64,000 bases of DNA, from the NCBI GenBank assembly GCA_958295805.1, contig OY282373.1, positions 2,769,499-2,833,498 on the forward strand, given 5' to 3'. The DNA comes from an uncultured Nitrospirales bacterium (GTDB lineage: Bacteria; Nitrospirota; Nitrospiria; Nitrospirales; UBA8639). Shown here piece after piece: positions 22,853-34,415 of this stretch. A program made the translations under genes and the position numbers. Positions within the stretch are counted from its first letter, which is position 1; every line of letters starts with the position of its first letter. The notes under the pieces are model-generated. The model was not told the DNA's origin and searched no databases. It worked only from the letters and a program-made list of their open reading frames with translations.

Positions 22853-23914
22853 TTACGAAAATCCCGGAACAGGAGGGAGGCCTGGGGTTCGGAAAGCCAG
22901 TACCTCGAATGTGCTGCCTAATTGGGAAGGGCTTGTTAACGTTTCAATGTCACGTTCTGAATCGTCTGAAGACCCGACTTGTTTCCGATAGAGATCAATC
23001 CCTATCGCCTTGAGCCACGCGCCTTGCCATTGACGGCCGACCGGTTCGAAGCCTGCGTGAGCGGCTGCCCGTTCGACTGCTGTAAAATCGAGGTCCGCAG
23101 TCAAATCCTGCTCACCGACTAAATCCAATGGGTCATGGACTTGCCGTTGTCGATAGTAACAACGGAGCGAGCCGTTCCTTCGTGAATAGTGGTACAGGTC
23201 TGGGGCCGTCATGCCATAGTCAATCACGAGAAAATACCCGACGGATAAAACGGAACGTGCGTCAGCCATAAAGGCGTCAATCCCGAGATGAACGTCTCCG
23301 ACCTGTCCGCGCCCCAACACAATTCCTTCTGATTCGAGTCTGGCTCTGAGCAACGGCGTTGAGGGAACGTCAAAACGTTCCACGAATTCTCCATGTCCAT
23401 CCACGTCAACGTACATTTCCTGGATTCCGCCGCGTCCATCTCCCATGACCCGATGCACGGGAAACGCATCAAGTACTTCATTAGCCAGGAGAAACGACGG
23501 GCATGGGCTCAACTCCGACGGGTGCGCCACCGTCCGTAGCCCTATGGCTCGTTGCTTGTTTCGCAATCCCGGACTCGGCTCGACCACAACGTACTCATGG
23601 GGACGGTGCAGAAACGAACCCACTCGGTTGCCCAGTTCTCCGGTCCCTCCTCCAAATTCCACGATCCGCAATGGTTCTCCGATCAAGGCATCAGCTTGCT
23701 CTATCGCTCCGGCAAGACAAAACGCAAAGGGCCCATACTTGGCGTTCGTCTGAAACGGTCCGCTTAAGGAGCCGATGTCGGGTCCCCTGGTATAAAAACC
23801 GAACTCCGGATGACATAAGGCCTGCTGCATGAACTCCCGAAAAGACATGGCTCCTTCAGCACGGATAGCGTGTTTCAAAAGCCGGCTGAGTTCGGTTTCC
23901 GTGCGAGGGACCAT
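22853..23914 (-). CDS. SAM-dependent methyltransferase, MidA/NDUFAF7 family
   Basis: A 353-residue protein of the COG1565 family, whose mitochondrial member NDUFAF7 methylates an arginine of a complex I subunit; the bacterial substrate is not established. Landmarks are GAMSFREFMQQALCHPEFGFYT at the N-terminus, the SAM motif VEFGGGTGEL, LLANEVLDAFPVHR, DYGMTAPDLYHYSRRNGSLR and DLTADLDFTAV. The ATG at 23914 gives the family start; a TTG at 23998 is the longer alternative. It is the terminal gene of its strand before the repeat patch. Confidence 0.87.
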   Translation of the reverse strand: MVPRTETELSRLLKHAIRAEGAMSFREFMQQALCHPEFGFYTRGPDIGSLSGPFQTNAKYGPFAFCLAGAIEQADALIGEPLRIVEFGGGTGELGNRVGSFLHRPHEYVVVEPSPGLRNKQRAIGLRTVAHPSELSPCPSFLLANEVLDAFPVHRVMGDGRGGIQEMYVDVDGHGEFVERFDVPSTPLLRARLESEGIVLGRGQVGDVHLGIDAFMADARSVLSVGYFLVIDYGMTAPDLYHYSRRNGSLRCYYRQRQVHDPLDLVGEQDLTADLDFTAVERAAAHAGFEPVGRQWQGAWLKAIGIDLYRKQVGSSDDSERDIETLTSPSQLGSTFEVLAFRTPGLPPVPGFS

Positions 23915-24001
23915 TTTCTCTTGAGGTTCTCCTGTCAAAACCACGGTCTTTGACGAACGGTCCACCGCTCTGCTGCGCTCAAAGACTCTGCAAACCAAAA
24001 A

Positions 24002-24059: not shown

Positions 24060-24416
24060 TTACTGAATGGCGGTCGATGTGGCCCCGCCTGGATTCACGT
24101 CCACCCGGTTCAAGGCGCCTTCAATTTCCGGCAAGCGTCCGGCACCCGTGGATTTTTTAATTCTCATGCGGTTGGGATCGGTGACCTCATTCATGGATTC
24201 TGCGTCATGGTACGAAGCCCCATCCATGGACGCTTGAGACCCGACCGCGTTCGCCTGCCCGGCATCATGGCTCGTCCGTGTCCCATCCGCCGGCGATTTG
24301 GTGGCCGACATCGGGTAGCCAGCGTGTGAAGGAAGCATGCCCGGATTGGCAAACGCCAGAGTAGCCGTGAAGGCAGTACCCGCTAAGGCAATAAGAAAAA
24401 TGCGAATACCTTTCAT
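24060..24416 (-). CDS. Small exported protein of unknown function
   Basis: A 118-residue protein with a clean signal peptide (IFLIALAGTAFTATLAFANP, cleavage after AFA). The mature part is low-complexity and rich in Ser, Ala, Asp and His, probably disordered, ending in LPEIEGALNRVDVNPG. AAAGGAG precedes the ATG, a strong promoter lies 80 bp upstream and a strong terminator follows, so it is a monocistronic, probably well-expressed gene. No family recognised. Confidence 0.75.
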   Translation of the reverse strand: MKGIRIFLIALAGTAFTATLAFANPGMLPSHAGYPMSATKSPADGTRTSHDAGQANAVGSQASMDGASYHDAESMNEVTDPNRMRIKKSTGAGRLPEIEGALNRVDVNPGGATSTAIQ

Positions 24417-24496: not shown

Positions 24497-24524
24497 ATTA
24501 TGCCTTTTTCCTGGAAAGTGTCAA
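24497..24524 (-). promoter_or_regulatory. Sigma-70-type promoter for the exported protein
   Basis: On the minus strand TTGACA (24519-24524) is followed after 16 bases by CATAAT (24497-24502). It directs transcription towards the gene starting at 24416 with a leader of about 75 bases. Confidence 0.65.
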
Positions 24525-24545: not shown

Positions 24546-26339
24546 TCAGGAGGCAGCCTTTTTCTGTTCCGGCCGTCTTGAGGGTCTGCCCGTCCGCCGA
24601 TAGGGGACTCTCTGCCGCAGAGCCGGCAATTTGATGGTGACCAGCGTCCCTTCCTTCGAGTCGCTCTGAATCGCAATGTGTCCCTGATGCTCCTCAACAA
24701 TCTTTTTGACCATGGCCAAGCCTAATCCCGTTCCCGACCGTTTTGTCGTGAAATAGGGTTCAAAAACTTTTTCACCTAATTCTTCGGGAATCGGAGCCCC
24801 GTCGTTGTGAATGCGGATGCTCAGGTACGGTTGACGGCCTCGTTGCTGCGACACGGTCACGTCGAGATGTCCCCCCGGCGACATGGCCTCCAAGGCATTT
24901 GTGAAAATACTGAGAAAGGCATGTTGAATTTTCTCTTGATCCCACTGAACCTGTCCGACTCGCACGGGGAATTTTTTCGTGACCTCAATCCGGTTGACTT
25001 TCAGATCCGTGGCGATCAATTCCAGAGCTTCGTCAATCAGCGTGGTCACCCGGCACGGTCGTCGATCTAATTCCAGGGGTTTGGCAAAATCTAAAATCTC
25101 ATTGAGGAGGCTGTCCATCCGGATCAAATCCCGCATGGCCGCTTCGACGCGCGTCTGGCTTTCGAAGTCGAGTGTGCCTTCTCCCGTGACTTCCTCCAAT
25201 TGTGCGCGAATATAGCCCATGGGGTCTCGAATCTCGGTTGCGAGAAACGAACTGACTTCCTTCAAGGCGGCCTGCCGTTCCTGACGACGAATAGCCGGTT
25301 CCGAGGGACCCGACGCCGCGGACTCGGGAATGGGAGGGGCAGGAGCCTCGGAGGAAGCAGAGGTCAAGAGCTTGAGTCCCGGATCTTCAAAGAGTTGGGC
25401 TAATTGCGTGGCAATCGGTTCGACCTTGCGCGACTCAGATTCCGCTGATTCATATTGCGCGGCGGTTTTCGAGGCAAGGGTAATGGTCCCGGCCACCCGC
25501 CCTCGGACGAAAAAAGGCACCACCAGCGCGCACTGAAATCGGTCACGGTACACTTGTCGATAGTCCTGGAAACGACCTTGCGTGGATGCCAGATTCTGGT
25601 CGACACGAGGTTTCCGATGACGAATTGCCCAACCCGACGCCGATTCGTTCAAGGGCACTCGCTGGCCCGGCAGGAGTTCTTTTTTATGCCCGGCCACGCA
25701 TCCTAAGACTTCCAAGACCGCGGCCAACGGATCGTAGACTGTGACCCATCCCCGATCGAACGGCACCTGAGCCTCCTTCAAACTGGAGGAAATTCGCTCT
25801 TGAACCTGAGGGGAGGCATACGTTCGTCCCGTGGACTCGGCCACTTCTGGACCGGATGTTTTGGACGAGGGCTCTTGCGACACCCAGGAGGGCGCCAGGA
25901 TCACGGATTGATCGAACAGTCGGGCTTCTCGTAATTGGTCGGTGATACGTTGACTGGCGGATTCCAGCGTGCTTCTTTCCCGTTTCGTAAACGGCTTGCC
26001 TTCCCGTTTGCCCGCGACCAAGACCCCATAGACCCGTTTGGCGTTCTTGAGGGTCATCGCCAACAGATTTTTCGAACCAGGGGTAATCATGCGGAGTTGA
26101 ACGACGCCATTTCCTTTTTCCGCATCGATACTCAAGGGACTCTCATTTTGTCGACGCTCCTCTCCCCTGGAAAGGGTTCGAAGCACGGCCCGCACCTCCC
26201 GGTCGGAAAAACCTTTGGTCACTTGAGGCACCAAGGGGCCATCGGACTGGTTCAGAATGGCCACGGTCGCATCCAGACCTAAATCGTTGACCGTCCTGGT
26301 TAAAATGCGTTGGAGCGTGGTCTGTTTTGAGGTTCGCAC
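24546..26339 (-). CDS. GAF-domain histidine kinase-like protein lacking the phosphoacceptor His
   Basis: A 597-residue cytoplasmic sensor with no transmembrane segments. Two GAF-like regions (about 10-145 and 180-330) are joined by a linker, followed by a dimerisation helix pair (about 355-430) and an HATPase domain (about 455-580). The ATPase boxes are normal: N box FTNALEAM, F box FEPYFTTKRSG and G2 TGLGLAMV. The H box reads FLATEIRDPM: where histidine kinases have His-Glu, residue 368 is Thr (codon 25236-25238). Autophosphorylation on the usual His is therefore impossible. No response regulator is adjacent. Start is GTG at 26339. Confidence 0.85.
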   Translation of the reverse strand: MRTSKQTTLQRILTRTVNDLGLDATVAILNQSDGPLVPQVTKGFSDREVRAVLRTLSRGEERRQNESPLSIDAEKGNGVVQLRMITPGSKNLLAMTLKNAKRVYGVLVAGKREGKPFTKRERSTLESASQRITDQLREARLFDQSVILAPSWVSQEPSSKTSGPEVAESTGRTYASPQVQERISSSLKEAQVPFDRGWVTVYDPLAAVLEVLGCVAGHKKELLPGQRVPLNESASGWAIRHRKPRVDQNLASTQGRFQDYRQVYRDRFQCALVVPFFVRGRVAGTITLASKTAAQYESAESESRKVEPIATQLAQLFEDPGLKLLTSASSEAPAPPIPESAASGPSEPAIRRQERQAALKEVSSFLATEIRDPMGYIRAQLEEVTGEGTLDFESQTRVEAAMRDLIRMDSLLNEILDFAKPLELDRRPCRVTTLIDEALELIATDLKVNRIEVTKKFPVRVGQVQWDQEKIQHAFLSIFTNALEAMSPGGHLDVTVSQQRGRQPYLSIRIHNDGAPIPEELGEKVFEPYFTTKRSGTGLGLAMVKKIVEEHQGHIAIQSDSKEGTLVTIKLPALRQRVPYRRTGRPSRRPEQKKAAS

Positions 26340-26413: not shown

Positions 26414-26815
26414 TCAATTAAGATGTCGGATCTTTCTCGTCCGAGAACGGGACGTGACCACGTCCACGCGACCACGATCAGAGACCATGAAATTCATCAT
26501 TCCGCTGACGAGGCTGATCAAAACGGCTCCTCCCGCTGCCGACCAGAATCCATGCACGTGAAACCCCTTCACGAAGACCGAGACGACACCCAGTAAAAAA
26601 GCATTGATCACGATCATAAATACCCCAAGGGTGGCCACGATGAACGGGGCTGAGAGCACGTACAGGATCGGGCGAACCAAGGCATTCAGCATCGCTAAGA
26701 CCAGTACGCCGACCGTGCCCGCGGCCAACGAATCAATGGCCAGGCCCGGTACGACTTGGCTCGCGACAAGCACGGCCACGCCCGTCACGATGAAACGGAG
26801 AACAAACCCTCTCAT
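26414..26815 (-). CDS. Phage holin family / YvlD-like membrane protein
   Basis: A 133-residue integral membrane protein with four predicted helices (about 5-22, 30-50, 55-80 and 88-112). It includes the family signature MLNALVRPILYVLSAPF and LLGVVSVFVKGFHVHGFWSA, matching the four-TM holin superfamily IV/YvlD proteins. Despite the name most members are chromosomal proteins of unknown envelope function. Not linked to phage genes here. Confidence 0.8.
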   Translation of the reverse strand: MRGFVLRFIVTGVAVLVASQVVPGLAIDSLAAGTVGVLVLAMLNALVRPILYVLSAPFIVATLGVFMIVINAFLLGVVSVFVKGFHVHGFWSAAGGAVLISLVSGMMNFMVSDRGRVDVVTSRSRTRKIRHLN

Positions 26816-27003: not shown

Positions 27004-27801
27004 TCAGGCCAACGCAACGGGAAGCGACCGGAGGAGTTTAAGGATCGCCAAGGCCGTAATGGGGCCATAGAGAAAACATCCGACCAGACCCAACAACGGC
27101 TCTCCGATCCAAAACGTCATAAATAAATTGAACAGCAACACCGCATAGTACAAGCCACAGCCAAGCAGCACTTCCCGCGCAGGGATGGTGGGTGGAAGCC
27201 GGGGCAACGTTCCCGTGCGTCGGTCAACCCATCGGTATCCCGCCATCGCAATCAATCCCACCACAAACCACCCGAAAAAGTTGGCCAGCGGAACGCCGAA
27301 ATACACCCCGGCCTCGGGATACCCATAAATTTGTCCTAAAAACCATCGTCCTCCCTGAAGCGCCACCGGATCAATCACAATATCCAGAAACGTGAACAAC
27401 ACGCAGGTCAGACCGATGACCTGCCAGGAGAGCGCCGCCTGACTGAGAAAGGATCGACCCGCTTGTTGAGCAAAAGGTTCAAAGGGCAGGACAAATAACA
27501 GGGCGACGCAATAACTCGCATACAATAAAAACGTAAACGACAACGAATCCATGAACGGAACGTGGGCGATATACAACTCCTCTCCCACGGTCGAACCCGT
27601 ATAATAGTAGTCCCCAAAGGGAAATCCGACGCGGGTGGATAAAAATTCACAGACAAAAGCCGTGACCCACGTGATGCCGAACATCACGCCGGTGCGTGTC
27701 CATCCCCACGCCCGCGACGCTGCGACCAACGAGACGGCCAAAAAGAAAAAGACGTAGGGTCGAAGCAGAAGGGTCTTGACCAATAACAGAGGAACATCCA
27801 T
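27004..27801 (-). CDS. Carotenoid biosynthesis protein, CruF-like
   Basis: A 265-residue polytopic membrane protein with about seven helices and the DUF422/CruF signature GFPFGDYYYTG, DPVALQGGRWFLGQ and GVPLANFFGWF, where conserved Asp and Glu lie at the membrane face. Relatives hydrate carotenoid psi-ends (CruF, bisanhydrobacterioruberin hydratase). ATG 27801 is used; a TTG at 27840 is in frame. It is downstream of hpnA and ispA on the same strand, which supports a role in isoprenoid lipid modification. Confidence 0.85.
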   Translation of the reverse strand: MDVPLLLVKTLLLRPYVFFFLAVSLVAASRAWGWTRTGVMFGITWVTAFVCEFLSTRVGFPFGDYYYTGSTVGEELYIAHVPFMDSLSFTFLLYASYCVALLFVLPFEPFAQQAGRSFLSQAALSWQVIGLTCVLFTFLDIVIDPVALQGGRWFLGQIYGYPEAGVYFGVPLANFFGWFVVGLIAMAGYRWVDRRTGTLPRLPPTIPAREVLLGCGLYYAVLLFNLFMTFWIGEPLLGLVGCFLYGPITALAILKLLRSLPVALA

Positions 27802-27873
27802 GGGTGGTGAATGGCTGAGTGTTGATTGTGGATCGGACAATCGACAATCAGAAATCAGAAATTAAAAAGAACC

Positions 27874-28860
27874 TCAGGCGTAGCCACGCTCTCGAAACCA
27901 CTTCACGGCTTTTTCCAACGCCACCTCTACCGGAGTCTGAGGCAAGCCCAGTTCTCGAACGGCCTTCGAACAATCGTAATGCATCACGTATTGCGCCATG
28001 CGGACCCCTTCAAGCGGAATGGATGGGGGTTGATGCGTCACATAGTCTGCCATCCACGTATTGAGACGAGCCAGGGGCAGCACCAGGCCACGAGGCAACT
28101 TCAACTTCGGAGCCTTGACCCCGGTCAATGCGCTTAAGATCTCAAACACCTCTTTCAACGTCAGATTGCGACAACCGAGGATATACCGCTCCCCCACCCG
28201 GCCACGCTCCATGGCTTGCAGGTGTCCGACCGCCACGTCCTCCACGTCAATAAGGTTCAAACCGGTTTCGATATAGGCCACCATGCGCCCTTTCATAAAA
28301 TCCACCACGATCTGACCAGTGGGAGTCGGCTTCACGTCACCCACGCCCACCGGAGCCGACGGATTCACAATGACCACGGGCAACCCCGCTGCGACCATCT
28401 TCAGGACTGCTTGCTCAGCCAGAAACTTCGACCGCTTATAATCCCCGGCCATCTGGGACAACGCGACCGGTGTTTCTTCGGTGCCGACGCCTCCACTCTC
28501 GGGCAATCCAATCGCCCCAATCGTGCTCGTGTAGACGATTCGTTCGACCCCGACCTCCCGAGCAGCTTCCATCAGGGCCTTGGTGCCCTCCACGTTCACC
28601 TTGTAGAACACGGACGGATCACGAGCCCACAGGGCGTAATGCGCCGCCACGTGGTACAAACGCCGACAACCAGCGAGCGCAGACCGAAGCGAAGCCACGT
28701 CGCACAAATCGCCGGACACGGCTTCAACCGCCGAACCAGCGAGCACCCGGCGGTCCGTCTCAGGCCGGACCAACGCCCGGACCTCCACGCCCGCTTGAAT
28801 CAACGCACGAGTCACGGCCGATCCAATGAACCCCGTTGCTCCGGTCACCAGCACCTTCAT
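27874..28860 (-). CDS. hpnA: Hopanoid-associated sugar epimerase HpnA
   Basis: A 328-residue extended SDR/NAD-dependent epimerase. The N-terminus VLVTGATGFIGSAVTRAL binds NAD, YKRSKF supplies the catalytic Tyr/Lys and IVNPSAPVGVGDVKPTPTG is characteristic of HpnA. HpnA proteins are encoded with hopanoid synthesis genes; their sugar substrate is not firmly known. It is followed by the CruF-like gene and preceded by ispA. Squalene-hopene cyclase is not in this window. Confidence 0.9.
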   Translation of the reverse strand: MKVLVTGATGFIGSAVTRALIQAGVEVRALVRPETDRRVLAGSAVEAVSGDLCDVASLRSALAGCRRLYHVAAHYALWARDPSVFYKVNVEGTKALMEAAREVGVERIVYTSTIGAIGLPESGGVGTEETPVALSQMAGDYKRSKFLAEQAVLKMVAAGLPVVIVNPSAPVGVGDVKPTPTGQIVVDFMKGRMVAYIETGLNLIDVEDVAVGHLQAMERGRVGERYILGCRNLTLKEVFEILSALTGVKAPKLKLPRGLVLPLARLNTWMADYVTHQPPSIPLEGVRMAQYVMHYDCSKAVRELGLPQTPVEVALEKAVKWFRERGYA

Positions 28861-28934
28861 AATAATAAGGAGGGAGAGGAGATTGTGAATTGCGGAGAAC
28901 GTCCACAATCAGAAATCAAAATTGAGATGCTTCC

Positions 28935-29831
28935 TTACCGTTTCCGGCTGACGATGTATTGGGCCATGCCTCTCAACGAATCAGCCTTCTCGTCAAATCC
29001 CTTGAGACAACTGATCGCGTGGTCAGCACGATCCTGGGCAAGTTTTCGGGCACCCTCAAGCCCGTAAAACCCGGGATACGTCTGCTTGCCCCGCTCAGCG
29101 TCCGTATTGGCATCTTTGCCCAACTCTTCACGCGTGCCCGTCACGTTCAACACGTCATCCGCAATTTGAAAAGCCAAACCAACGTCTTCGGCATAGGCCG
29201 TGAGTTGGTCGAATTGTCTCAAATCGGCACCGGATAAAAGGGCCCCCGCCCGAACCGCCGCCCGGATGAGTTTCCCGGTTTTATGCGCATGAATCGTGCG
29301 CAACTCCTCTAATGCAACGCGTTGATTCTCAGCTTGAATGTCCAGGACTTGTCCGCCCACCATCCCGTGATTGCCCGCTCCCAACGCCAATTCCTGGATG
29401 ATCTGGACCTGGACGTACGGTTCAATATCATTGACCAGATCGGCTCGGCTGCACCATTCAAACGCCATCGTGTGTAAGCCGTCGCCAGCCAGAATCGCCA
29501 CGCCGTCGCCGTACACTTTGTGGTTGGTCGGCTTCCCACGGCGAAAATCATCGTTATCCATCGCCGGCAAATCATCATGAATCAGGGAATAGGTGTGAAT
29601 AAACTCAAACGCACATGCGACCGGCAGCACCGCGCGTGGCGGGGAGCCGATCGATTCCGCTGCGGCAATCGTCAAGATGGGTCGAAGCCGTTTTCCGCCG
29701 GCCAACAGGCTATACCGAATTGCTTCGTGCAACACGGCCGGTGACGTACCGACGGGGGGAAGGTGTGCTTCTAAATACCGATCAACCGTCTGCCGTTTCT
29801 CTTCCAGATAGGTCTCAATATCGAGGGACAT
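28935..29831 (-). CDS. ispA: Farnesyl diphosphate synthase
   Basis: A 298-residue trans-prenyltransferase. The first Asp-rich motif is HDDLPAMDND (Asp86) and the second QIADDVLNVTG. Tyr81, five residues before the first motif, is the bulky residue typical of C15-producing type II synthases, so farnesyl diphosphate is more likely than geranylgeranyl diphosphate. GGKRLRP binds the diphosphate. It is the first gene of the ispA-hpnA-cruF-like operon, supplying the precursor for hopanoid and carotenoid synthesis. Confidence 0.9.
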   Translation of the reverse strand: MSLDIETYLEEKRQTVDRYLEAHLPPVGTSPAVLHEAIRYSLLAGGKRLRPILTIAAAESIGSPPRAVLPVACAFEFIHTYSLIHDDLPAMDNDDFRRGKPTNHKVYGDGVAILAGDGLHTMAFEWCSRADLVNDIEPYVQVQIIQELALGAGNHGMVGGQVLDIQAENQRVALEELRTIHAHKTGKLIRAAVRAGALLSGADLRQFDQLTAYAEDVGLAFQIADDVLNVTGTREELGKDANTDAERGKQTYPGFYGLEGARKLAQDRADHAISCLKGFDEKADSLRGMAQYIVSRKR

Positions 29832-30014
29832 ACATGGCCTTTTTGAGCAGACTGTTCGCGGATCGAAAACTAGCAAAGGGTTCGGGGGGTGTCAAACGGA
29901 AGGGGGTCAGTGGAACGTTGGGCACCGTGGAGACCCTGAGAAGCCGACGACGCCGACGTTCCCATCAGCCGTCACGTCACAGAACCGCGTCTCCTCATGA
30001 AAGGGGAATTTGTC

Positions 30015-30281
30015 ATGCCCTGTCCCCTCAAGGTATACTTCTCTCCCATGAGCATTCGGAGAGCAGCCGGCGAATGGCAACCCCTCATGTTGGGCGTTGA
30101 ACCTGAAACCTGTGGAGTGTGCCATCGAGGACTGTCTCGGACCACTACTCTGTTCAAGGGAGGATGGGAACGCTGTTCCGTTTGTGGCAAGTTTGTCCAC
30201 CATGCGTGCCTCGCCAGCGGACGGGTCAAATTTCTTAAACGGCGGCCACGCGTCTGTCTGACGTGCGAGCCATTGCCTTAA
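30015..30281 (+). CDS. Small zinc-binding protein with a C4HC3 (PHD-like) pattern
   Basis: An 88-residue protein whose cysteines and histidine fall in the order Cys33-Cys36, Cys54-Cys57, His62-Cys65, Cys81-Cys84. The spacing is C-x2-C-x17-C-x2-C-x4-H-x2-C-x15-C-x2-C, within the range of eukaryotic PHD fingers and FYVE/RING relatives. The segment between is basic (RVKFLKRRPR). The ATG at 30015 has GGGGAA upstream; ATG 30048 is an alternative. A two-zinc cross-brace is inferred only. It is divergent from ispA. Confidence 0.6.
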   Translation: MPCPLKVYFSPMSIRRAAGEWQPLMLGVEPETCGVCHRGLSRTTTLFKGGWERCSVCGKFVHHACLASGRVKFLKRRPRVCLTCEPLP

Positions 30282-30321: not shown

Positions 30322-30657
30322 ATGAATGAGGCAATCCGACCGCTTTCAGAAACAGCTTGCCGTTTGCCCCCGTCGGCAATCGCGCACTTGGTCCTCGCGG
30401 CTCTCGTCTCAGCCTGGAGCGGCTTTTTCACGATGGACTTTATCCTCAGCGGCATCTATACCTGGCCTCGTTGCAGTCGCGTCGTCGCCCTCACCTGCGC
30501 GATCATCATTTTGACCTATGAATTTATTTACAAGGAACACCAGACCCGGTATACCGCCGTCACCGACATCATGCCCCTGAAAGTCGTTTTCTATTTTTGC
30601 ACGATTCCATATATGGTCGGCTCGTTGGCCCTCTTAGCACTCATCAATTTCACCTAA
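30322..30657 (+). CDS. Small membrane protein, three TM helices
   Basis: A 111-residue protein with hydrophobic helices at about 20-42, 52-70 and 86-109, ending in YMVGSLALLALINF. No family recognised. It begins 40 bp after the C4HC3 protein gene and 25 bp before the next small gene, so the three may be co-transcribed. Confidence 0.6.
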   Translation: MNEAIRPLSETACRLPPSAIAHLVLAALVSAWSGFFTMDFILSGIYTWPRCSRVVALTCAIIILTYEFIYKEHQTRYTAVTDIMPLKVVFYFCTIPYMVGSLALLALINFT

Positions 30658-31902: not shown

Positions 31903-32095
31903 CGGCATCAGGCAACCCGACCTTCTCGTAACGCTTGAACCGTCCAGGACGTCCCGGTTTTCATCAGATCAGCCGGAGTACCGGCTTCGACGATCTCGCC
32001 CCCGCGTTCTCCACCCTCCGGGCCCAGATCCACGATCCAGTCCGCGTTTCGAATCACGTCCATATTATGCTCGATCACCAAGACGGTGTTCCCGT
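31903..32095. repeat. Direct repeat, intact arm (uvrA 3' end)
   Basis: This stretch matches 30865-31055 in the same orientation over about 190 bp. Together they bracket the toxin-antitoxin module. Confidence 0.8.
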
Positions 32096-34415
32096 GCTCG
32101 ACCAATTGATTCAGCACGTCAAGGAGTCGCTGCACGTCTGCAAAATGGAGCCCGGTCGTGGGCTCATCCAAGACGTACAGGGTGCGGCCCGTGGCTCGTT
32201 TGGAAAGCTCACGACTGAGTTTCACGCGCTGCGCCTCTCCCCCGGACAACGTGGTGGCCGATTGTCCCAGTTTCATATAGTGAAGGCCCACTTCCGCCAA
32301 CGTTTGCAGCTTTCTTCTGATCGACGGGACGTGGGCAAAAAATTCCAAAGCCTCGGCAACCGTCAGATCCAACACCTCCGCAATGTTCTTGCCTTTGTAT
32401 CGCACGTCCAGCGTTTCCCGATTGTATCGCCGCCCTTTGCACGCCTCACACGTCACGTACACGTCAGGTAAAAAGTGCATTTCGATTTTGATGAGACCGT
32501 CTCCTTGGCAGGCTTCGCACCGTCCACCTTTGACGTTGAAACTGTAGCGCCCGGGTTTATAGCCTCGCACCCGCGACTCCGGCAGCACGGAAAACAACTC
32601 CCGGATAAAGGTGAAGAGCCCGGTGTACGTCGCGGGATTCGACCGCGGGGTTCGGCCAATGGGGGATTGATCGATATCAATCACCTTATCCAAGGCATCC
32701 GCGCCTCTCAGATCGCGACAGCCTTCCATTCTGGGATTGTTCTGATACAACAACTGGGAAAGCGAGGGGAACAACACTTCCAGCACCAAGGTGCTCTTTC
32801 CCGACCCGGACACGCCGGTGACACAGGTCAACAGCCCAAGCGGCATGCTGACGTTCACCGATTTCAAGTTGTGTTTGCGGGCTGCAACGACGTCCAGAAA
32901 CCCTTTGGGACGACGGGTCCGTTCCGGCAACGCGACTTTCAGTTCTTCCCGCAAATAACGCCCCGTCAACGAATCGGGCCGTGCCATCACCTCTGAGGGG
33001 GTGCCTTGCGTCACAACGTATCCGCCATGCACCCCGGCACCCGGTCCCATGTCAACAATGTGATCCGCGGCAAGCATGGTGGCGGCATCGTGCTCCACCA
33101 CCAAGACGGTATTGCTCAGGTCGCGGAGCCGAAGCAGGGTTTGCAGCAATCGACGATTGTCCCGTTGGTGCAGGCCAATACTGGGTTCATCAAGGATATA
33201 CACCACGCCCACGAGACCCGAGCCGATTTGGGTGGCCAGCCGAATCCGTTGCCCTTCTCCACCGGAAAGCGTCCCCGCCGGTCGATCCAACGTGAGATAG
33301 TCCAACCCCACGTTGAGTAAAAACTCCAACCGTTCCCGGATTTCTTTTAAGATGCGTTGGCCGATGTATCGCTCACGTTCGGTTAATTCGAGAAACTCGA
33401 AAAAACTCACGGCGTCGCGAATCGAAAGCCGCGTGACGTCCGCGATGGATTTCGAGCCGACCTTGATCGCTAAACTTTCACGCTTAAGCCGAGCGCCCAG
33501 ACACGCCGAACACACGTTATGAACGGAATACTCCTGCCCGTCCGGGCAACCGGAGACCTCAAAGCCAATCCCATCACAAATCGGGCATGCGCCCTGCGGA
33601 CTGTTAAAAGAAAAAACACGGGGGGTAATTTCCGGATAACTCACCCCGCACGTGATGCAGGCCAACTGTTCACTATAGAGCGTGAGCGTATCGTCGCCCG
33701 TCAGAATCCCCACCAAGCCTTGACTCAATTTCAAGGCCGTCTCCACTGAATCCGCCAGCCGTCGCCGCAGGGATTCTTCATCGTTCATGATGAGTCGATC
33801 GACAATAATTTCGATCGTATGCTTCCGCTGTTTTTCCAAAGAGATGGACTCCCCAAGGTCGACAATCTTTCCATCAATCCGGGCCCGCACGTAGCCGGCG
33901 CGCCGAGCCTCGGCTAACTCCTTGCGATATTCTCCTTTCCGCCCCCGCACGATCGGGGCGAGCAGTTGAAACTTTGATCCGACGGGCAGTGCCCCAATGG
34001 CGTCAACCATCTGCTGCACGGTCTGAGCCGTAATCGGTTCCCCACAATTGACGCAAAACGGTCGCCCGATGCGGGCAAACAACAGCCGAAGATAATCGTA
34101 AATCTCCGTCACCGTCCCGACCGTGGACCGGGGATTATGGCTGGTCCGTTTTTGCTCAATGGAAATGGCGGGAGACAAGCCTTCGATCGAATCAACGTCC
34201 GGCTTGCCCATCTGTTCCAGAAACTGGCGCGCGTAGGCGGATAACGATTCCACGTACCGCCGTTGACCTTCAGCATAAATCGTATCAAAAGCCAGCGACG
34301 ACTTCCCTGATCCGCTCAACCCCGTGATCACCACCAATCGGTCGCGAGGGATCACCAGATCGAGGTTTTTCAGATTGTGCTCGCGGGCCCCTTTAATATG
34401 AATGTGTTGACTCAT
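31908..34415 (-). CDS. uvrA: Excinuclease ABC subunit A, short form
   Basis: Damage-recognition ATPase of nucleotide excision repair. Both ABC domains are complete: Walker [15 protein letters not shown] and [14 protein letters not shown], signatures [13 protein letters not shown] and [13 protein letters not shown], and zinc modules [14 protein letters not shown] and [14 protein letters not shown]. The protein is 835 residues against about 940 usually. The difference is local: between [10 protein letters not shown] and [15 protein letters not shown] only about 20 residues remain where E. coli has about 110, so the insertion domain is missing. An additional Cys (SGCPDG) lies in the short linker. 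Reading frame and both flanks are intact, so this is a natural variant rather than a broken gene. Confidence 0.93.

Follow-up and report, generated by a model that had tools for sequence, protein, structure and literature searches.

What role can a histidine kinase retain once its phospho-acceptor histidine has gone? The question is raised by a gene on the minus strand (24546–26339) of the 64,000 nt stretch of Nitrospirales DNA analysed here, referred to as the window. Starting with GTG, it encodes a 597 aa protein with the domain order GAF-GAF-DHp-CA. The first GAF domain spans residues 6–132 (25944–26324; PF01590) and the second residues 193–317 (25389–25763; PF13185), the latter being the more conserved in the orthologue alignment (entropy 0.99 vs 1.55 for the first). 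They are followed on the same strand by a DHp helical hairpin at residues 349–420 (25080–25295), recognised from the helices of an AlphaFold model (residues 349–386 and 392–419) together with a weak HisKA match, which at 22.5 bits falls below the Pfam cut-off of 26.9, and by a CA (HATPase_c) domain at residues 467–573 (24621–24941; PF02518, 83.8 bits). GAF, HisKA and HATPase were the sole families matched: Pfam revealed neither a PAS domain nor a C-terminal receiver, the chain stopping after the CA domain, and no hydrophobic membrane segment was evident by eye in the protein. The model (mean pLDDT 82.7, pTM 0.42) comprises two GAF domains, a long helical hairpin and a CA domain, the placement of which relative to one another is uncertain given the pTM. 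Structure alignment of the modelled kinase core matched it to ZraS (Z 24.3, rmsd 4.2, 229 residues), DivL (4q20; Z 21.8, rmsd 4.8, 219 residues) and RetS (Z 20.6, rmsd 2.9, 206 residues), and both the DHp hairpin and the GHKL CA fold of canonical HisKA kinases appear intact in the model.

At the H box, the minus strand reads ...SSFLA-T368-EIRDPMGYIRAQ..., such that Thr368 (codon ACC, 25236–25238) occupies the position of the phospho-acceptor His. The initial annotation had recognised this substitution, and an alignment of homologues upholds it: residue 368 is Thr in 78 of the 92 non-redundant Nitrospirales orthologues, the others having Gln (6), Ala (3), Gly (2), Ser (2) or Met (1), and it is His in none. 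Amongst the nearest ordinary kinases (71 sequences), the equivalent position is His in 69 of the 70 readable rows. The alignment excludes a sequencing error as the source of the Thr; moreover, ACC lies at least two positions away from the His codons CAC and CAT, hence one base error cannot explain Thr368. The Thr codon itself varies by species between ACA, ACC and ACG, the pattern to be expected from selection at the amino acid level. The window protein has no further His in its DHp domain, and an alternative DHp His acting as acceptor was rejected, as none is conserved in the orthologue alignment. Phosphorylation on Thr368 was also rejected, and the suggestion that the protein may phosphorylate elsewhere finds no support as regards this Thr, since the site is Ala, Gln, Met, Gly or Ser in several lineages.

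Changes extend to other catalytic positions on the same strand. The residue four positions beyond the acceptor (H+4) belongs to the HisKA phosphatase motif. Working enzymes have Asn or Thr here, mostly Asn in the ordinary kinases compared; by alignment it is Asp372 in the window protein (25224–25226) and Glu in 81 of 92 orthologues. The first Asn of the N box is replaced by Ser477 (AGT, 24909–24911), with 75 orthologues having Ser, 16 Cys and a single one Asn. In WalK, this residue makes contact with the Glu next to the His; its EnvZ equivalent, when mutated, leaves ATP binding unaffected but abolishes autokinase activity (PMC5633905). The second N-box Asn, which is Mg-binding in EnvZ (PMC5633905), is present as Asn481 (24897–24899) and retained in 88 of the 92 orthologues. 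The Asp of the G1 box, known to hydrogen-bond the adenine amine (PMC5633905), aligns with Asn512 (AAC, 24804–24806), the motif reading N512-D-G-A-P516 (NxGxP) as opposed to the DxGxG of ordinary kinases; all 88 orthologues whose G1 can be aligned have Asn here, as against Asp in 70 of 71 ordinary kinases. The description of the N, F and G2 boxes as intact consequently holds for the latter two, whereas only Asn481 is kept in the N box, the first Asn being Ser477; with G1 altered as well, the ATP site is not intact.

Families f1, f2 and f3 retain the second N-box Asn together with the F box and G2. In family f4, the members of which were assigned by full-length profile matches of 480–626 bits and a shared neighbouring cytochrome gene (cluster c8), the orthologue alignment indicates the loss of every one of the N, G1, F and G2 boxes. 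It is therefore doubtful that the protein binds ATP, as had been thought probable, with the adenine-binding Asp replaced by Asn in every alignable G1 and these boxes missing from f4. Weak nucleotide binding may persist in f1–f3, where the retention of Asn481 and G2 suggests that the nucleotide site still does something. Some active GHKL proteins, those of the HPK10 class, may tolerate an altered G1 box, and the window protein could thus still bind or hydrolyse ATP weakly.

The rarity of such changes is apparent from a census of HisKA kinases made through family searches. In G053, a complete genome from the order, fifty HisKA loci were read. Of these, 48 keep the H, first N-box Asn and G1 Asp, and one matches below threshold and has no CA domain; the pseudokinase is alone among the 49 HisKA kinases in being changed at any of these positions, and is changed at all three. 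A control PhoR-like kinase kept the H, both N-box Asn residues, the Asp and the Gly in 26 of 26 of the same genomes. The control also bears on the DHp domain: the proposal that this is unusually conserved, and so has a fixed partner, was rejected, because the PhoR-like kinase shows a similar pattern, and overall DHp conservation is hence not evidence by itself. All that remains as DHp evidence is the contrast between a relaxed catalytic core and a retained docking half. The catalytic segment has an entropy of 0.29 in the pseudokinase and is invariant (0.00) in the control, whereas constraint on the docking half of helix 1 is comparable in the two proteins (0.29 in the pseudokinase vs 0.34).

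An orthologue is held by 57 of the 59 genomes of the first search, including the source genome; the other two, both incomplete, gave general kinase matches only. A family-level profile search found it in 221 of the 269 genomes of the class, all within one order, and detected no orthologue in the sister families of the class at E ≤ 1e-60, a threshold that very divergent homologues would escape. Named records assign the group to the Nitrospirales, the orthologues including records named Nitrospira defluvii and Nitrospira sp. A tree constructed by a quick method, with the trait columns left out, requires one change between the His and non-His states (branch support 86), and a single origin of the loss is favoured, albeit not proven. 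Between close pairs, dN/dS across the whole gene is 0.03–0.26, f4 included; for the CA domain it is mostly below 0.17, with a highest value of 0.20 and a range of 0.15–0.17 in f4. The gene is also retained in reduced genomes with just 6–8 HisKA matches overall, those of 1.7–1.9 Mb having 6–7. The His-less state is retained across the order under purifying selection, and would appear to be old.

The pseudokinase gene sits amongst others on the minus strand linked to isoprenoid metabolism and hopanoids. Farnesyl diphosphate synthase (IspA, 28935–29876; NF045485, above cut-off), the hopanoid-associated sugar epimerase HpnA (27874–28908; TIGR03466, above cut-off), a CruF-like carotenoid-family membrane protein (27004–27840; PF04240) and a small membrane protein matching PF04020 in Pfam (26414–26815), the upstream neighbour of the pseudokinase, are encoded on one side. 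On the other, downstream side are genes for a 118 aa small exported protein (24060–24416), with a signal peptide discernible by eye and a FANPxxLPxHxGYP motif, and for a SAM-dependent methyltransferase (22853–23998; PF02636) conserved in family f1. The order IspA - HpnA - CruF-like - (cytochrome c) - PF04020 - pseudokinase - small exported protein, on one strand, recurs in f1 and f3 with local gaps and insertions. Beside the IspA gene and running opposite to it are two small adjacent open reading frames on the plus strand (29997–30281 and 30322–30657), conserved there in several genera and without a Pfam match, the first of which looks Cys-rich and of the zinc-ribbon type. Further along, the 835 aa UvrA (31908–34415, minus strand) scores above the NCBIfam cut-off and is around 100 residues short of the 943-residue model, with a stretch ahead of residue 294 apparently missing; its orthologues across the order are comparably short (834–890 aa).

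The small exported protein has no Pfam or NCBIfam match. Almost every Nitrospirales genome has it (218 of the 269 in the class), some with extra copies, up to five; f4 and the listed sister families yielded none. In 105 of the 113 genomes where both genes were placed, it is encoded 126–705 bp downstream of the pseudokinase on the same strand. A putative sigma-70-like promoter, TTGACA-N16-CATAAT, precedes it in the window (24497–24524, minus strand; 11/12 match), and comparable TTGACA-led best matches precede 51 orthologous small genes, such that almost every orthologue read has one. Given that the small gene has its own strong promoter-like sequence, its position does not imply cotranscription with the pseudokinase. 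Adjacency is nonetheless consistent with the two proteins working together; f1–f3 keep both, whilst in f4 no small protein was found and the ATP pocket has collapsed, which may point to a tie between them. That the pseudokinase is an ancient, order-wide switch operating without any phosphoryl transfer and functionally tied to the small exported protein is a tentative proposition, and on balance a doubtful one.

The loss of the H, H+4, first N-box Asn and G1 Asp positions gives good support to the designation of this protein as a regulatory pseudokinase, which was first proposed on narrower evidence and now extends to four catalytic positions replaced across the order. Having lost the acceptor His along with the autokinase Asn and the adenine-binding Asp, the protein is very unlikely to autophosphorylate in the ordinary way; with neither Asn nor Thr at H+4, ordinary phosphatase action on a response regulator is unlikely as well. 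The two sensor domains survive, as does a dimerising hairpin whose docking half is conserved, and there is the precedent of DivL, hence we propose that the protein is a DivL-like pseudo-histidine kinase serving as a soluble, GAF-gated, dimeric binding switch on a receiver or another kinase, a reading that we hold to be probable. The existence of f4, in which the protein remains under selection yet has no ATP pocket, was counted in its favour. We infer the absence of catalysis, the binding as a dimer and the gating by the GAF domains. These domains would respond to a bound small ligand or to redox state, and their signal would alter the DHp four-helix bundle of the dimer, the docking face of which may then bind, sequester or allosterically set a partner. 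The partner would most likely be a response regulator, as DivK is for DivL, and otherwise another kinase.

No response regulator lies beside the pseudokinase gene, and neighbourhood comparison found no kinase conserved there. An orphan single-domain response regulator, encoded beside an HD-GYP-like gene (L367 1301–1672; G000 C1:922800–923171), was rejected as an order-wide partner, as useful identity was confined to f1, with no counterpart found in f3 or f4.

Were the partner a kinase, the protein might be a modulator of the RetS type, heterodimerising with an ordinary sensor kinase and thereby blocking or redirecting it. The modelled DHp hairpin is intact and the core aligns with that of RetS at an rmsd of 2.9 over 206 residues (Z 20.6), whilst a catalytically dead ChrS altered signalling by HrrS, with which ChrS heterodimerises (PMC9491836). 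However, the gene has no conserved kinase neighbour and its product lacks the architecture of RetS, and we consider such a role unlikely. Alternatively, the altered G1 pocket may bind a nucleotide, perhaps another one, with binding rather than phosphotransfer setting the switch. Asn512 is invariant rather than drifting, dN/dS in the CA domain is low, and Asn481 and G2 are kept in f1–f3, all of which accord with such a nucleotide sensor; the persistence of the gene in f4 without the pocket does not, and this reading seems very unlikely.

The retained Asn481, F box and G2 of f1–f3 might also be taken as signs of a kinase using an alternative site, either Thr368 or another protein, in the manner of the GHKL Ser kinases PDK and SpoIIAB. 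Yet with Ala, Gln, Met, Gly or Ser at residue 368 in several lineages, phosphorylation of the Thr cannot be a shared mechanism, and the replacement of the G1 Asp by Asn wherever it is alignable, along with the lost pocket of f4, renders such activity highly improbable. Four changed catalytic positions are also what might be expected of a degenerating kinase that is being lost, or of a misread gene. There is next to no chance of either, however, as the same state is found across the order (221 of the 269 genomes of the class), dN/dS is well below 1, and at least two substitutions separate the codon from one for His.

A limited search of the open-access literature on His-less kinases and Nitrospira kinases returned DivL and ChrS, and no description of the Nitrospirales family. 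Pseudo-histidine kinases are thus already known, but the order-wide Nitrospirales variant appears, within that limited search, to be new. Among conserved bacterial pseudo-histidine kinases DivL is the best studied, and the Nitrospirales protein would be a second, independent, order-wide case, in a group including Nitrospira, bacteria responsible for much of the nitrite oxidation worldwide. The progression from f1–f3 to f4 would constitute a natural series, in which catalytic residues are lost with the docking face kept, and the ATP pocket is lost thereafter, well suited to the question of what a kinase fold does without kinase activity. The genomes with 6–8 HisKA matches have about as many receivers, making the search for a partner a small one; in the source genome, 8 receivers score above the Pfam cut-off, alongside a handful of other HisKA kinases.

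The closest known core, by both sequence and fold, is that of the ZraS/AtoS-type histidine kinases; ZraS and AtoS are active His kinases, whereas the window protein has lost the H, the first N-box Asn and the G1 Asp. RetS, of Pseudomonas aeruginosa, is alike in the fold of its kinase core and is a known modulator of another kinase, but it combines a membrane sensor with receiver domains and retains its His, none of which holds for the window protein. In Corynebacterium glutamicum, a non-catalytic ChrS allele still alters signalling via its partner kinase (PMC9491836); this is a laboratory-evolved frameshift, whilst the Nitrospirales pseudokinase is a conserved family. Separately, a Deltaproteobacteria-labelled kinase (L146 1498–3525) has Tyr in place of the H-box His (KLAYEIQTPM), and is possibly an unrelated pseudo-kinase. 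DivL of Caulobacter crescentus has no kinase or phosphatase activity, binds nucleotide weakly and binds DivK~P specifically (PMC4211667). It too keeps the HisKA-type DHp-CA fold (Z 21.8 to 4q20), and its replacement of His by Tyr is likewise lineage-wide, with the exception of Ala in Magnetospirillum. The Nitrospirales protein differs in having Thr, Gln or Ala rather than Tyr, in being confined to the order Nitrospirales in the genomes searched, and in having two GAF domains where DivL has multiple PAS domains; and whereas DivL acts in the alphaproteobacterial DivK-CckA-CtrA circuit, the Nitrospirales gene sits in an isoprenoid/hopanoid-linked cluster.
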